A stretch of 64,000 nt of DNA, taken from Anaerovibrio sp. JC8 (GTDB lineage Bacteria; Bacillota; Negativicutes; Selenomonadales; Selenomonadaceae). Positions 57,143-64,000 of the stretch are shown piece by piece. Each line of letters starts with the position of its first letter. Within the stretch, counting starts at the first letter, position 1. Position numbers and translations under genes: made by a program. The stretch is taken from contig NZ_ANBM01000001.1 of NCBI RefSeq assembly GCF_002100115.1, forward strand, positions 186,001-250,000, read 5' to 3'. The notes beneath the pieces were generated by a model. That model was not told the origin of the DNA. It saw nothing but the letters and a program-made list of their open reading frames with translations, and did not search any database.

Positions 57143-57469
57143 TCACACAACGTCCATTCTAAGAATAGACTTCCAGTTTCGTTTACCATAAAGAAATCTA
57201 ACTATATGAACAGCATGGGCAGCTTCATCAATCCTGTAGAACACAAGATAATTATTCACACTAAATATCCTGATGCCCCAAGCCTTCAATACCGGTTCAT
57301 CGACCGTAGCAAACTTTGCCAGCATAACAGATAATTTTTCGACTTCCTCTGTTACTTTGTCCAGCAAATCATCAGCCGCCTTTGGGTTATGCAAAATAAA
57401 CTCAATATAGTCGGCCGCCTCTATAATATCTTTCTCGGCTTTTTGCGAAATAATAATACTGTAATTCAT
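57143..57469 (-). CDS. RelE/ParE-family toxin
   Basis: 108 residues. The fold is recognisable from ISQKAEKDIIEAADYI, the central beta strands AWGIRIFSVNNYLVFYRIDEAAHAVHIVRFLYGKRNW (about residues 63-99) and the basic C terminus. ParE-type members poison gyrase, RelE-type members cut mRNA; the sequence does not decide. Its start overlaps the antitoxin stop by four bases. Confidence 0.9.
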   Translation of the reverse strand: MNYSIIISQKAEKDIIEAADYIEFILHNPKAADDLLDKVTEEVEKLSVMLAKFATVDEPVLKAWGIRIFSVNNYLVFYRIDEAAHAVHIVRFLYGKRNWKSILRMDVV

Positions 57470-57729
57470 TTCTTGCGTCTCGCTTTTATATCAGACATTG
57501 CGTCAGAAAAAGCCCGCATTCTGCCTGCATCGATATCTTCCATGCCTTCATGTACGAGGTTATAAAGCTCAAACCGTCCCATAAGGGCTTCATAAGCTTC
57601 AACACTCATAACCGCCAAATCACCCTTCCCATTTTTCGTAATAAAAACAGGCTCGTTGTATTTATGGCATAAATTGGAAATTTCGTTGTAACCATTACGT
57701 AAGTCCGCACTAGATCTAATGTTAGGCAT
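57466..57729 (-). CDS. Phd/YefM-family antitoxin
   Basis: 87 residues from the ATG with GGAGG eight bases upstream; a GTG two codons earlier is possible. The N-terminal half (RSSADLRNGYNEISNLCHKYNEPVFITKNGKGDLAVMS, about residues 4-42) is the Phd DNA-binding fold, and the charged C-terminal helix (DAMSDIKARRKK) would bind the toxin. A perfect palindrome over the promoter is the likely autoregulatory site. Confidence 0.93.
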   Translation of the reverse strand: MPNIRSSADLRNGYNEISNLCHKYNEPVFITKNGKGDLAVMSVEAYEALMGRFELYNLVHEGMEDIDAGRMRAFSDAMSDIKARRKK

Positions 57730-57745
57730 GTCCACCGCCTCCTTT

Positions 57746-57776
57746 TATAACAAAATTATACAATAATTTTGTTATA
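57746..57776 (-). promoter_or_regulatory. Phd-ParE operator palindrome over the -10
   Basis: Two perfect 14-base arms, TATAACAAAATTAT and ATAATTTTGTTATA, with a three-base spacer. The right arm contains the TATAAT -10 of the antitoxin promoter, 17 bases before the start codon. Confidence 0.8.
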
Positions 57777-58258
57777 TATTCAATCATACATTGTAAACAA
57801 AAACTTCACTACATCTAACAACAGTGTCACAACCAATAATCAGAACTCCTTTTCAGCTTTCATGAAATCCATAATATTGGCATGGATTATACCATTGCGC
57901 TTTTGCAGCAATTTATCTGTGCCCATACATATAGCGGGGATTTTAAAACCAACGCCTCCCCTACACAGGAATAACAAAAATACACCGTTATTTCAAGTTA
58001 GCAGTGTATTTGTTAATATTTCTTTAAAAAATACTACCGTAAAATGATTTAACTAGGTATCTATTTCTATAAAAAATTCCAATAGTAAATACACGTCCAG
58101 ATTGAATCTATCCCCCTCCTATTCGATGATGCTATTATGACACAAACTAGGCTGGATAAAAACCGGTGATATTTTTGACTCTTACAGAAAATCTTCAAAA
58201 TCAGTACACCACGTCCAAATGGCAGGTGGTAAACGCCAAATTATTCAACAAATACGAA
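57777..58258. other. Intergenic region, no gene seen
   Basis: AT-rich spacer between the Phd-ParE module and the STAND gene. Short reading frames here lack ribosome sites and family resemblance. A weak hairpin pairs ATACAC with GTGTAT (57980-58012). A GGAGGGGGA motif on the minus strand near 58113 is not followed by a plausible frame. Confidence 0.5.
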
Positions 58259-61200
58259 CTAAATGATATTTGGAACAATCTCTATTTTTCCCTCAATCCT
58301 ATTTGCATCGTAAAGAAAATAGCCCTCTCTCCGTTGCCATATTTGTCCACCATCTCTTCCCAAAAAGAACTGTTTCTCTCCCACAACATCCCAAAAAACA
58401 CTGACGCCTCTCTTAGCTATAAATAATTCTAAGAGATCTTTTCTAATTAGAAGTTCTCCATGTTTATCTCCAATAATTCTGGTATCAAATGCAGCAAGCT
58501 GGTCGTTATAGAAGAAAGCTCCATCCACCGATTTCTGATAAAGGCCTAGTGCCGAAATAATATCTCCCGTGGGAATGTAATATGATGTCGTCTCATCTTG
58601 GGAAGCATCATACTGTTCTCCCCAAATGGTATTAATTGTGGCAGGAATTGCTTTCACTTCACATTCATCAAAGTCATCTTCCAAAAACTCACTTATATAC
58701 CCAGGGCTCCAAGCATACTCTCTTGAAAATAATGTATAACTGTCCCTAGTAGGATTTATTCCTGAATGTTTTCTTAGATAACCCGATGTTTGCAGAAGCT
58801 CTATTGAGACATTCTGGGAATCATCTGCAATATGCATTGCAGAAATTGCCCAAATGTGTTGTTCCCCACGTGGCAACGACAGGAAAGAATCTTCTACCCC
58901 AGGAAATTCTTTCTTACGTTCCTGATATAAATATATTGAAATCCATTCCACGCCATCTCGATCTATTCGTATAAATCTATCTGGGAAATGCTGATATATT
59001 TCATCATCACCTCGTACCCATGCGTTTATCTCTTCATCTGATGAATCAGAATCAATAAAGCGGACTTCATTCAGTACTGCTTCTTCAAATACAGGAAACA
59101 TACTTCTATCATGCTTAATCTTGGTATTTAATGTAGGATCAAAATCTCTTACATATAGATTCCAGGGGCCAGAATAATCTTTTCCAATTTCGTCGTTCCA
59201 GTTTTCACCTCTTACCTTGAAATAATCGGATAGTCGCGCAAGGATGTTGTACATTGCTATCCATTCGTATTTTTTACCAATTCGCTCTACTTTTTTAAGC
59301 TGGTGTCTGTCAATATAAACTCTATCTGTATCATATTTTCCGAACAATTGGTTTGAATATCCAATTTCTTTAATTATGTATTCAAGAGCATAGTAATATA
59401 CATTTTTCATATCTACACCAATAAAATCATGTAACGCTGATTGAAATACATATCTTCCAAAATCACCATACATGCCAGCCCCCTTAACATCCATGTTAAA
59501 CTTCATTGAATACAACAATTTCAACATTCCACTTTCATGGTATTTTCCTTCGTCATAATCAACGACATCTGCTTGGGGTATTGGGCATGAAGAATATGGT
59601 GGCATTATTTTTTCTTTTTCAAAAAAGCCCTCTCTGTCCGGATTTTCATATATAAATCGTTCAATAATTAACCGAGCATAATCTCTTAGTAAAATATCCG
59701 GGTATACTTTTTCTTTATCAAACACCTCGGAATAAACCAAACGAGCAAGACTTTCAAATTCTCTTATCTGCGTTTGTGAACGTTTCATTACTGCACCAAA
59801 AATAATTCCATACAAACGCTGAATTATATATGGATCATTTACATTTTTAAATTTCTCCAGAACAACTGAACAAAGACTGAATCGGCCCTTTAGAACCTCA
59901 ATCATCGCTTTTGAAATACGATCACGCAGAACCCTATTAGATGATGAAAGCATCCAAGTAAAAAGACTCAATAAGTATTTTACAGATGTATCAGAAAGCC
60001 CCCTCAGCTCATTCCCAGATTCTAAATAATATGCCAAGCTAATTATTCTGTCATCTTCCGTCAAATCATTTATAGCTATCGTCCACAAATAATCACGCTT
60101 ACTCAACGAATATCTGTCTAGCAATTGAAAAAGACCATCCGCATTTAAAATCGAGTTTTCTTTTGTGGCACACTCAATAAAAATAGACCACAAGACACTT
60201 CTGGCAATCTTATATTTATTCATCAGTTCGACAATCTGCATCAATGAATATTGCGGATTTCTCCAAGTAAATGTTTTAAAATAAGCATCTATTATCCGTT
60301 TTCTCTCCCAACCTACCTTTATAGCATCGATTATATCTATGCATTCCTCATTGTTTTTGATAGCATACAAAGAACAAACCATGGCAAAGATAGATTCATT
60401 GCCGTAATCGGTAACATTTCCATTAGAATCAATTTTAAACAACTCTTTTAGACAATAATCCTTTAGGTTTTCTATAGAATCATATTTTTCGACAATTCTA
60501 GAGGCTCGGATATAATCTTCCAGTAAGTTATACCCAATATAGTAATATTCTTCTCCATTTCTTATATACGATATCAAAACACCAGCACGTTCACTTGCGT
60601 TAATGTATGCTACTTTATCGGCCACACCATACAGCTGCCAAGTTTCCATTCCTAACAATCTTCTTTTAGTAACATAATCCTTTTCAGATATGTCTATATA
60701 TTCAAATAGTAAATCTTTTAATAGTCGATATGGTTCTTCATGACCAGTAGCCTTAGACGCCTCTTTATCAGCCTGATCCAAAACAGTTGAAATAAGAGAT
60801 ATCAATCCATGCTCCTCACCTGCATATGTCTGGCAAAACCATGTGATGAATAATGGATTGCACATCTCCCGCTGAAGATAAAACTCTGGCGAAGCTGGAA
60901 CACCATATTTTGACAAAAATTCAAAAATTGGTTTGGGTGAATCGTCCATCAACCCCTCATGCTTGATAGATGCAATCTTCCCAGCCTTCAACTCATTCTG
61001 GACTTTGTCACTATACAGTACCTGTTCAAATCCACTTCGTAGCGACACAACCAAACGAAGATTATCATACTGCCCCATAATCGTTATAAGGCGATTTAAT
61101 CCATCTACCCAAATATCCTTGTCTCGCGATTCGTTAATGGCATCAATAAATATAAACGCTCGTTCATTGCTTTCATAAGCAATCTCATCCATTGCTCCCA

Positions 61201-62365
61201 ACAATGCGTCAAACGATTCATTGGTATCAATCTGCAGTAGTCCATTCATCATCTGCATTTCAACCGGCTCATTGGATGTAAATGTCTGACCAAGCATCAG
61301 CAAAGCATTTCTCCCTTCACTCAATTCATTCTTTGCTGATGTTGCCAATAACTGAGATTTTCCTGTCCCCATTTCCCCCGTAACAAACAATGCCTGACAA
61401 CAAAGCAAACTCTTTTCAGACTGAGTTATTGCCAATCGTTCAACGCATCTTAAAATGAAATTAACGACATAAAGTTCGCTACTCAACTTATAATATTGCT
61501 CTGAGCCATGATTTTCTTTGTCTATTGCTCCTTCAATTACAGGTATTGATTCAGTCAACCTGATTAGTTCTTCTTTGCTTGCTTTTTCTACTAATTCTTT
61601 CCACTTAAGTACATCTGAAACTGAATCAATTTGCACATCTTCCAGATTCTCAATCGCAAAAATAAGATTATTTATTATTCTTTTATAATTCCCATCACAT
61701 CGCCATCTAATATCTTTTAACTCTTCAACTACATCCGCCTTTTTTCTGTTTAATAATGAAATACCTTCTGCATTATGAAGAAAGAGCGCCATCTTCCGTT
61801 TTGCATCAGTATCAATGTTAAATCTGCCATTATATCTGCCCCCCAAGTTGTCTAATGACAGTTTTAGATTTAACTCAAACCAACTCTTATCAAGTTTATC
61901 TAATCCAAAATAGCAAGCAAGTATAGACGGAAACTCCAATGCTCCGTCCAAAATGCTTTGGCCGGTAATCGGAACTAAATCTATACCAGCATTCGTCAAC
62001 ATCTTTTCAATATCAATGTATGACTTTGTGGTAGTATTTACATCCTTATTACAGTAAAGATAAATCTTATCAAGTATTCCGCCATAATACTCTATCGCAG
62101 TTTTCATGGAAGATTTAATTTGATCATATTCAATGTTGCCATCAAAGTATTTTGCCTGAAAGCTAATCATCTCAATACCATCTTGAGAATGTACTGGTGA
62201 TACTTCCACTCCAGGATGATTAGGATTAGAATGAACTACCTCATATTTATCTGCATATTTCCTGCAAAATAAAGATCGACAAAGATTTTCAAAAGCTATT
62301 CTTTTATCTGGATTTATGTCGTCAAAGTGAGTCCAAGTCAATTTGTATTGATTAGCAGAAATCAT
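58259..62365 (-). CDS. Nuclease-STAND NTPase fusion, probable antiphage protein (Avs-like)
   Basis: 1368 residues. The N-terminal 130 residues look like a PD-(D/E)XK/Mrr-type nuclease: FENLCRSLF, HPGVEV (Glu54) and ISFQAKYF (Gln70, Lys72). A P-loop ATPase follows with Walker A GEMGTGKSQ near residue 330 and Walker B AFIFIDAINES near 405, then LRLVVSLRSGFEQVL. Residues about 480-1368 are a long helical region with a beta-rich end and no motif I recognise, as in sensor domains of AVAST proteins. AT-rich compared with its surroundings, suggesting transfer. GAGGTGGG precedes the ATG. Function is inferred from architecture. Confidence 0.75.
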   Translation of the reverse strand: MISANQYKLTWTHFDDINPDKRIAFENLCRSLFCRKYADKYEVVHSNPNHPGVEVSPVHSQDGIEMISFQAKYFDGNIEYDQIKSSMKTAIEYYGGILDKIYLYCNKDVNTTTKSYIDIEKMLTNAGIDLVPITGQSILDGALEFPSILACYFGLDKLDKSWFELNLKLSLDNLGGRYNGRFNIDTDAKRKMALFLHNAEGISLLNRKKADVVEELKDIRWRCDGNYKRIINNLIFAIENLEDVQIDSVSDVLKWKELVEKASKEELIRLTESIPVIEGAIDKENHGSEQYYKLSSELYVVNFILRCVERLAITQSEKSLLCCQALFVTGEMGTGKSQLLATSAKNELSEGRNALLMLGQTFTSNEPVEMQMMNGLLQIDTNESFDALLGAMDEIAYESNERAFIFIDAINESRDKDIWVDGLNRLITIMGQYDNLRLVVSLRSGFEQVLYSDKVQNELKAGKIASIKHEGLMDDSPKPIFEFLSKYGVPASPEFYLQREMCNPLFITWFCQTYAGEEHGLISLISTVLDQADKEASKATGHEEPYRLLKDLLFEYIDISEKDYVTKRRLLGMETWQLYGVADKVAYINASERAGVLISYIRNGEEYYYIGYNLLEDYIRASRIVEKYDSIENLKDYCLKELFKIDSNGNVTDYGNESIFAMVCSLYAIKNNEECIDIIDAIKVGWERKRIIDAYFKTFTWRNPQYSLMQIVELMNKYKIARSVLWSIFIECATKENSILNADGLFQLLDRYSLSKRDYLWTIAINDLTEDDRIISLAYYLESGNELRGLSDTSVKYLLSLFTWMLSSSNRVLRDRISKAMIEVLKGRFSLCSVVLEKFKNVNDPYIIQRLYGIIFGAVMKRSQTQIREFESLARLVYSEVFDKEKVYPDILLRDYARLIIERFIYENPDREGFFEKEKIMPPYSSCPIPQADVVDYDEGKYHESGMLKLLYSMKFNMDVKGAGMYGDFGRYVFQSALHDFIGVDMKNVYYYALEYIIKEIGYSNQLFGKYDTDRVYIDRHQLKKVERIGKKYEWIAMYNILARLSDYFKVRGENWNDEIGKDYSGPWNLYVRDFDPTLNTKIKHDRSMFPVFEEAVLNEVRFIDSDSSDEEINAWVRGDDEIYQHFPDRFIRIDRDGVEWISIYLYQERKKEFPGVEDSFLSLPRGEQHIWAISAMHIADDSQNVSIELLQTSGYLRKHSGINPTRDSYTLFSREYAWSPGYISEFLEDDFDECEVKAIPATINTIWGEQYDASQDETTSYYIPTGDIISALGLYQKSVDGAFFYNDQLAAFDTRIIGDKHGELLIRKDLLELFIAKRGVSVFWDVVGEKQFFLGRDGGQIWQRREGYFLYDANRIEGKIEIVPNII

Positions 62366-62456
62366 TTATAAGCCCACCTCGTATACTGTTACAATAAGCA
62401 ATGGTGCATACAAATATGATTAAGTTACACCCACAAACAATACAATCGTGCATTTT

Positions 62457-62714
62457 TCACTTACTACCACCATATCCATCTTGTTTTGCTTGTATTAATA
62501 TCTCCTCTATGCAGGCGTTCATTGACTGCTGCTGATAATCTTCAGTAATCTTTCTAGCTGCTCTACAAAAATCTGCAATCGCCTTTCGCATCTCCAAAAT
62601 ATATTTTTGTTGCTCAAGGTGATGTTGTTTGGCATCTTTCTCTGTTTGTAGTTCATTATGGAGACTCAATGAATTTTGATTGAAAATACTATATGGATAT
62701 TGATTATAAAACAT
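62457..62714 (-). CDS. Small hypothetical protein upstream of the STAND gene
   Basis: 85 residues starting MFYNQYPYSIFNQNSLSLHNEL, then a glutamine- and lysine-rich helical stretch with coiled-coil character and the segment MRKAIADFCRAARKITEDYQQQ. Not recognised. It is AT-rich like the STAND gene, has GAGG eleven bases before its ATG and ends 91 bases before it. It could be a partner of the STAND protein or an unrelated mobile-DNA gene. Confidence 0.55.
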   Translation of the reverse strand: MFYNQYPYSIFNQNSLSLHNELQTEKDAKQHHLEQQKYILEMRKAIADFCRAARKITEDYQQQSMNACIEEILIQAKQDGYGGSK

Positions 62715-62886
62715 TTTTCGTCATTCCTCTTTTTCATTATGATTGACATTTACCCCTCTAATTATAAAGTTACTTGCCAAACTATTGTCATAATATTAAG
62801 CCATTTTTAATAATCTTTCACCATCATCTTACCACTATCGCATTACCAAAACAAGAGTTTGTTTTAAAAAGAATCCAACCAAAAAA

Positions 62887-62908
62887 ACAGCCGTTAGGCT
62901 GCTTTTAT
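62887..62908 (-). terminator. Probable terminator after the HAD gene
   Basis: Short stem CAGCC / GGCTG with a TAAC loop followed by seven T on the minus strand. It lies about 70 bases after the HAD domain stop. Confidence 0.6.
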
Positions 62909-62974
62909 CATCTCTAATCCCTACAAAAAATATCCCTAGTATAAACCTCATCCTTCACATCACCCAAACAATTT

Positions 62975-64000
62975 TCACACAATATACCTATCCACAAACG
63001 CCAACACAGATTCAACAGTATCTATCTGTCCGTAGTCACCATCATGGTAATCACAGCCTACGCCGTTAACCAATATGCTCTTGCACCCAGCAGCGATACC
63101 AGCCTTAATATCATTCTCACTATCTCCTACCATATATGACTGGCTTAAATCAATATTAAAGTCTGCAGCAGCCTTCAACAACATGCCTGGCTTGGGTTTC
63201 CTGCATTCACACTCAATCTTTAATTCAGGCACTTCGCCCCCATAGCCCTTATGAGGATGATGAGGACAATAATATAGCCCATCTATATAAGCCCCCTTCA
63301 GACCAAGTTCTGTCTCCAGCTTCTTATGAATAGTATCAAGAGCATCAACAGTAACCTCTCCACGAGCAATAACAGGTTGATTTGTAACCACTATACATAA
63401 GTAGCCAGAGGCATTTATCTTTTTGATTGCTTCTGCAATACCAGGAATTAATTCAAAGTCATCAACATGGCGCAAGAATCCTTTATATAGGTTAATCGTA
63501 CCATCTCTATCCAAAAACACAGCCTTCTGCTTATTAGCCAATTTTTTGGCTGAAACTACACCATTTTCAAAATCTTTACATACAGCTTCAAATCGCTCAG
63601 GTGTCCCCATATCCTTTACATATTCCGGGGAATCATAACAAAATATCTTGCCGGTGCCACATAACGGCTTTAATACCTGTCTATCGAGATCAAGTTTTAT
63701 TGTCTTTCCAGTTGATTCATCAACTTTACCAATCTTCTCAATATCAATATCCAACATATCGAGAGCATCAGGACTTATTACATGAAGCCCAGCATTTACT
63801 CTATTTTTGTAATACTCAGGTCTAACATCTTCTTTAGTAAGCCAAGATACTACTGCATTACTTTTATCAGCAATGATAAGACCAGAATCATAGGGATGAG
63901 AATTGGGATGAGTAAATAAAGTAACAAGCCATGCTTAACTAAGCTTTCAATCTCCCATTCCAGAATAGGTTTGTTTGCAATTTGAATTAGCGGCTTTGGA
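62975..64000 (-). pseudogene. Broken nucleotidyltransferase-HAD phosphatase fusion (HddC-GmhB like)
   Basis: The gene should encode a sugar-1-phosphate nucleotidyltransferase fused to a GmhB-type phosphatase. The last 240 codons are intact: FLDRDGTINLYKG (HAD motif I), VVTNQPVIARGEV, zinc-type CPHHPH and CECRKPKPGM, and VGDSENDIKAG. Upstream the frame continues to LVTLFTHPNSHPYDSG and then hits a stop. In another frame, up to the window edge, lies the N-terminal part PKPLIQIANKPILEWEIESL ending VKHG. About 70 codons that normally lie between VKHG and LVTLF are missing, with loss of frame, near 63925-63936. An internal ATG at 63757 leaves a 260-residue frame that holds the phosphatase. Confidence 0.78.

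Follow-up and report, generated by a model that had tools for sequence, protein, structure and literature searches.

Does the large AT-rich gene at positions 58259-62365 of a 64,000-nucleotide stretch of Anaerovibrio sp. JC8 DNA (contig NZ_ANBM01000001.1; hereafter the window) encode a new kind of antiphage protein, or a member of a family already described? An earlier note, made from the sequence alone, had read the product as a nuclease-STAND NTPase (nucleoside triphosphatase) with an unrecognised sensor, AVAST-like and probably new. The nuclease-STAND-sensor layout and the AVAST likeness were borne out by Avs2 models, by the solved Avs2 structure (Protein Data Bank (PDB) entry 9o4e) and by the fold modelled for the effector. 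The novelty was not: judged by its sequence, the protein is a divergent member of Avs2 (AVAST type 2), a family of NLR-like bacterial immune receptors already described, and falls short of being an equivalog of NCBI's Avs2 model. The gene, avs2 below, appears to be a genuine phage-defence gene acquired by horizontal transfer rather than a new kind of system. Its frame starts with ATG and runs uninterrupted through 1368 codons, with a G+C content of 35.7% compared with 46.1% for the window; it is AT-rich, as the earlier note had it. No second avs2 match was found in the genome's own 2.68 Mb at E ≤ 0.001. The gene and its parts are as follows.

58259..62365, minus strand: avs2-family gene, 1368 amino acids, intact (PADLOC PDLC02162 and PDB 9o4e matches)
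61898..62344, minus strand: predicted PD-(D/E)XK (Mrr/Avs4-type) nuclease effector, residues 8-156 (AlphaFold fold, Foldseek, VIA, PADLOC Avs4)
61421..61897, minus strand: helical linker between effector and NTPase, residues 157-315, approximate (model helices; identity to the Butyrivibrio copy L002)
60506..61420, minus strand: STAND/NACHT-like NTPase core, residues 316-620, approximate (P-loop, Walker B-like motif, NLRC4/NLRP3-like model)
58262..60505, minus strand: Avs2 sensor, residues 621-1368 (PADLOC Avs2 models, conservation in alignments A1 and A4, alignment with 8dgc)

PADLOC model PDLC02162 matched residues 9-1360 of the protein (E = 1.4e-178; profile positions 3-1369 of 1379), a match over most of both protein and profile, as in PADLOC's definition of Avs2. 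Six Avs2 models (PDLC02161-02166) matched strongly, and no other PADLOC model did so. Residues 321-1368 alone matched six Avs2 models, among them PDLC02162 nearly end to end (E = 5.7e-166), so the Avs2 call is independent of the effector. With HMMER filters on, no Avs1, Avs3 or Avs4 model was listed at E ≤ 10 for the full protein, and no PADLOC Avs4 model matched residues 321-1368 at E ≤ 10. The sole strong match in the PDB sequence set was 9o4e (E = 1.4e-70), aligned over residues 286-934 and 998-1359, the latter within the sensor. The supposedly unrecognised sensor is thus recognisable as that of Avs2 and, like Avs2, the protein is a single large chain spanned by PDLC02162. A new Avs family is ruled out by the full-length matches to Avs2 models; membership in Avs4 is ruled out for the receptor, and the effector domain alone retains it.

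An AlphaFold model of residues 1-291 (mean predicted local distance difference test score (pLDDT) 76.4, predicted template-modelling score 0.53; block mean pLDDT 81-94 over residues 51-150 and 59 over 41-50) runs in the order helix 21-36, strand 58-60, strand 66-72, helix 80-94, strand 100-105, helix 114-125 and strand 129-133, which is that of the PD-(D/E)XK core. In alignment A2, which holds eight N termini including that of the window protein, E26, G52-x-E54, Q70-A-K72 and Q82 were invariant; in A3 (nine rows: the window protein and eight relatives) the invariant residues were F25, E26, G52, E54, Q70, A71, K72 and Q82. E26, E54 and Q70-x-K72 we take to be the PD-(D/E)XK motif, and the model combines the alpha-beta core with the conserved acidic and lysine residues of that superfamily. 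Glu54 and Lys72, proposed earlier as residues to mutate, were numbered correctly, both being invariant in the nine rows. The earlier note had also made its claim depend on a nuclease fold in the N-terminal model; the model shows the fold, which leaves the claim unrefuted on that point.

Foldseek matched the effector model best to Avs4, with the two chains of the Avs4-portal structure 8dgf in first and second place (best E = 9.2e-6). VIA-align placed the effector on 8dgf with Z 16.0 (root-mean-square deviation (rmsd) 2.3, 142 residues, 22% identity), which agrees with the Mrr/PD-(D/E)XK-like N terminus first proposed; behind it, AspBHI (Z 8.8) and others (8.0-8.7) were tied. PADLOC Avs4 matches were obtained for residues 1-160 (PDLC02169, E = 2.7e-13) and 1-200 (4.6e-13), a sequence match that is fragile on its own. 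Pfam yielded no usable match to the N terminus; Mrr_cat (Pfam PF04471) matched one of the eight N-terminal rows (E = 0.015) and not that of the window protein. Against the PDB, phmmer with residues 1-179 gave one match (E = 1.6), taken as chance. The A2 profile had just two matches there: the 9o4e linker at 164-202 (E = 0.0024) and a weak one, spanning E54 to K72, to the restriction enzyme LlaBIII (E = 0.036). In the model the effector fold is that of Avs4, and DNA cutting is predicted. The protein resembles Avs4 in this N-terminal nuclease but differs from it in residues 321-1368, which match six Avs2 models and no Avs4 model.

The linker is 73.6% identical to that of L002, a copy from Butyrivibrio hungatei NK4A153, compared with 83.0% over the whole protein, and its model falls below pLDDT 50 at residues 173-187. 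The NTPase core carries the P-loop GEMGTGKS at residues 330-337, intact as the earlier reader had seen, and a Walker B-like FIFIDAINE at 404-412, the two motifs of the Avs2 STAND NTPase; the NTPase model resembles NLRC4/NLRP3, with pLDDT below 60 in the P-loop region itself. The sensor comprises a helical part followed by a mixed C-terminal part with ERIGKKY at residues 1027-1033. Top structural neighbours of the 1090-residue C-terminal model were animal NLRs, namely NLRC4 (Foldseek E = 3.4e-4) and NLRP3 (VIA Z 11.3); the Avs3-terminase structure 8dgc aligned with Z 9.9 (rmsd 9.0, 428 residues) over model residues 463-1082 (protein 741-1360). The entry 9o4e was not among the fold-search matches of this model, its presence in the fold library being unchecked. 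Z values of such helical models are not decisive, and sequence carries the family call.

The protein is very probably a stand-alone Avs2 receptor, with terminase-triggered DNA cutting as its likely action. By analogy with the family, the C-terminal sensor would bind a packaging protein conserved among phages; the large terminase subunit, which characterised Avs2 sense, is the likeliest candidate. Trigger binding together with ATP would cause the STAND NTPase to oligomerise, and the N-terminal Avs4/Mrr-type PD-(D/E)XK nucleases, brought together in this way, would cut phage and host DNA; phage resistance would come from sacrificing the cell to halt the infection. What the analysis itself establishes is that the gene is intact, its family, the fold of the effector model, the conservation of the catalytic and P-loop motifs, purifying selection, mobility and the defence-island setting of the Butyrivibrio copy. 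Passages of PMC12931631 and PMC12724215 describe for the Avs family binding of packaging proteins by the sensor, ATP-dependent STAND oligomerisation, DNA cutting and cell death, and for Avs1-4 nuclease activity with terminase or portal triggers. The oligomers are given as trimers in a passage of PMC12724215; 9o4e is listed in the PDB with four chains.

Several observations weigh against this reading. The NCBIfam Avs2 model NF041813 matched in two stretches with 507.5 bits and missed its 1000-bit equivalog cut-off, which marks the protein as related to the Avs2 family and not as an equivalog of the NCBI-modelled Avs2. The best PADLOC Avs2 score was 594.5 bits, compared with 1755.8 bits (1482 residues) for the yardstick L024, a relative of the same length as 9o4e (1484) that contains both of the 9o4e stretches compared; with a score so much lower, the trigger may differ. 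PDB sequence searches revealed no match of the solved Avs2 to the N-terminal nuclease of the window protein, so the effector of the former is no evidence for that of the latter; its N terminus is another one, helical as read from the L024 sequence by eye. The PADLOC Avs4 match was absent for residues 1-320 and for the full length, and the C-terminal model is weak to moderate (mean pLDDT 63.7).

Some of these points bear on whether a divergent Avs2-family branch senses a non-terminase trigger, be it portal or another phage protein. We consider this unlikely, with a chance that is nonetheless real: in addition to the gap in PADLOC scores, the window sensor lies in a nine-row branch (SH-aLRT 100 in a quick tree) apart from the solved type, and Klebsiella Avs2 is reported, in a passage of PMC12724215, to bind the phage protein Ksap1 besides terminase, while the nearly end-to-end alignment of residues 321-1368 with PDLC02162 and the lack of any listed Avs1, Avs3 or Avs4 model for the full protein weigh against it.

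Could the gene instead be a STAND regulator, or a decaying gene, with no immune function? A same-genus relative broken into two frames (genome G001) would fit, but the window copy is intact, retains the nuclease and P-loop motifs and evolves under purifying selection that is strongest in the effector: the ratio of nonsynonymous to synonymous substitution rates (dN/dS) against L002 was 0.148 across the 1367 codons compared and fell to 0.08 within the effector. The 83% identity of the protein to L002, the low dN/dS and the full-length matches to family models show that the open reading frame (ORF) is not a product of chance, and the B. hungatei copy adjoins BREX and Uzume genes. A regulator or decaying gene of this kind is extremely unlikely, and we retain the Avs2 receptor described above.

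The B. hungatei protein is 83% identical over residues 1-1367, and its DNA is 84.5% identical over a stretch that opens at 62381, 16 bases ahead of the start codon, and closes at 58266, 7 bases before the gene end; no other stretch of the 13.5 kb of L002 matches the window. The flanks of the two copies are unlike. Downstream of L002, four of five frames match PADLOC models, namely WYL (5.9e-28), UzuA (4.6e-93), BrxP (4.3e-250) and BrxC (5.5e-122; truncated where the locus ends), and the B. hungatei copy thus lies in a defence-island context. Butyrivibrio belongs to the Lachnospiraceae. LpxC is present in the window's genome and in 360 of the 380 genomes of its class, which marks that class, the Negativicutes, as lipopolysaccharide-bearing. 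The avs2 gene has moved alone, between distant bacteria. A comparison of 62381-62990 with 57750-58262 revealed no exact direct repeat of at least 10 bases and no inverted repeat of at least 11 bases. An intact Avs2 in a lipopolysaccharide-bearing class, with its Butyrivibrio copy, is a clear natural case of the transfer of an immune receptor encoded by one gene.

A search of genome contigs gave 22 stretches with a pattern match, 8 of which encode a relative. Matches were present in 6 of the nearest 120 genomes and in 9 of 380 genomes of the class (own genome included in both counts), and an order-wide search with the N-terminal alignment found 2 of 189, the own genome and G001. Among viral contigs, the A1 alignment search yielded relatives on 9 of 221 stretches, and the scan with the N-terminal alignment returned 26 stretches, none with a relative; phage records held a relative in 2 of 50,697 cases, and distant relatives, all below 60% identity, occurred in 71 of 72,556 plasmid records. 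The plasmid records, together with a viral-contig relative (L021) that adjoins three frames read as site-specific recombinases, might suggest that the targets of avs2 are plasmids or integrative elements, instead of phages or in addition to them. We judge this very unlikely: phage-defence genes are usually located on mobile elements, a location that says nothing of the target, and terminase and portal, the triggers, come from phages.

N termini differ among the relatives. In a 29-row alignment, compiled without viral loci L025, L027 and L028 and most plasmid matches, 17 rows retain E26, G-x-E54 and Q-x-K72. The N terminus of L020 is SMEK (Pfam 4.4e-39), that of L012 has a trypsin-like match below cut-off (E = 0.0012), and those of L019, L023, L024, L026 and L011 are called helical from reading the letters only. 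In the quick tree (26 rows; near-copies L006, L026 and L055 dropped) the window protein, L002 and L053 form a group (support 100) inside the nine-row branch, which consists of Lachnospiraceae, same-class and viral-contig rows; the deep part of the tree is unsure owing to five long end branches. Four changes suffice for the effector labels when four unlabelled rows are left out. With unlabelled rows counted, 7 changes are required for the Mrr label, a number equalled or bettered in 127 of 500 shuffles, so it is not clearly clustered. Because relatives were gathered with the window protein as query, the set is biased towards Mrr-type rows, and we make no claim about the ancestral state.

The combination of an Avs2 receptor with an Avs4/Mrr-type effector seems already covered by PADLOC models and by a Rhodothermus marinus protein (WP_144295528.1, L062). 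All eight N termini in A2 are matched by PDLC02162 (best E = 5.6e-77) and by PDLC02164 (best E = 1.7e-72), and PDLC02164 matches window residues 1-160 alone (E = 1.5e-5). The R. marinus protein, named Avs2 in its record, has the E, G-x-E, Q-A-K effector motif and an Avs2 receptor but is distant, with 24% identity to the window protein. L011, despite its helical call, is likewise aligned with PDLC02162 over almost the whole length, which means that profile coverage alone cannot tell the effector type. It is doubtful, and in our view quite unlikely, that Avs effectors are exchanged between families as working units and that this branch, an Avs2 receptor with an Avs4-type nuclease that lies so far from the solved Avs2, senses a phage protein not known as a trigger of any characterised Avs2; the window protein offers a concrete test of effector interchangeability between receptor families. 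Two of the relatives have notable neighbours: on the IMG/VR contig L021 (1-4541) the relative lies directly after three frames read as serine recombinases, and in genome G366 (L057:2242-5601) a 47%-identical relative adjoins a gene matching MkoC (E = 7e-56).

Within the genus, 2 of 16 genomes, several of them incomplete, have a relative at E ≤ 1e-10: the own genome and G001, where the relative (L059 1778-5985) is broken near the P-loop region, leaving two frames, and a neighbouring frame was read as from a conjugative element. In G010, which has no avs2, both flanks are on a single contig, separated by 341 bases (L051 1819-2161, corresponding to window 62978-57399). The same spot in G013 (L052:4682-5932) holds an AAA_14/DUF4143 gene matching the PADLOC candidate PDC-S01 (1.6e-129), and it is perhaps a variable spot for defence genes. 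On the downstream side of avs2 the window contains:

57143-57735: ParE-like toxin (Pfam E = 9e-15) and Phd/YefM-like antitoxin (1.4e-8)

The toxin-antitoxin module of the earlier note is thus a genuine neighbour, and as part of the Avs system it is ruled out: tblastn with both proteins (E ≤ 0.01) found neither of them in any of 25 avs2-carrying loci, with flanks of a few hundred bases to ~8 kb per side. G010 retains toxin residues 22-107 at 75.6% identity, with no antitoxin match, and tblastn detected neither protein at the G013 spot. Absent from the 25 loci, and with most of the toxin kept in a genome that lacks avs2, the pair has had a history here separate from that of avs2. An 85-amino-acid ORF at 62457-62714, between the HAD gene and avs2, was likewise rejected as a partner gene, since its matches are weak (DpdH 0.014 in PADLOC; DUF4736 0.0097, below the Pfam cut-off; none in NCBIfam) and homology to L002 sets in no more than 16 bases ahead of avs2. 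The nucleotidyltransferase-HAD gene itself (62975-64000) appears to lack ~240 internal bases that are present in G010 and G013.

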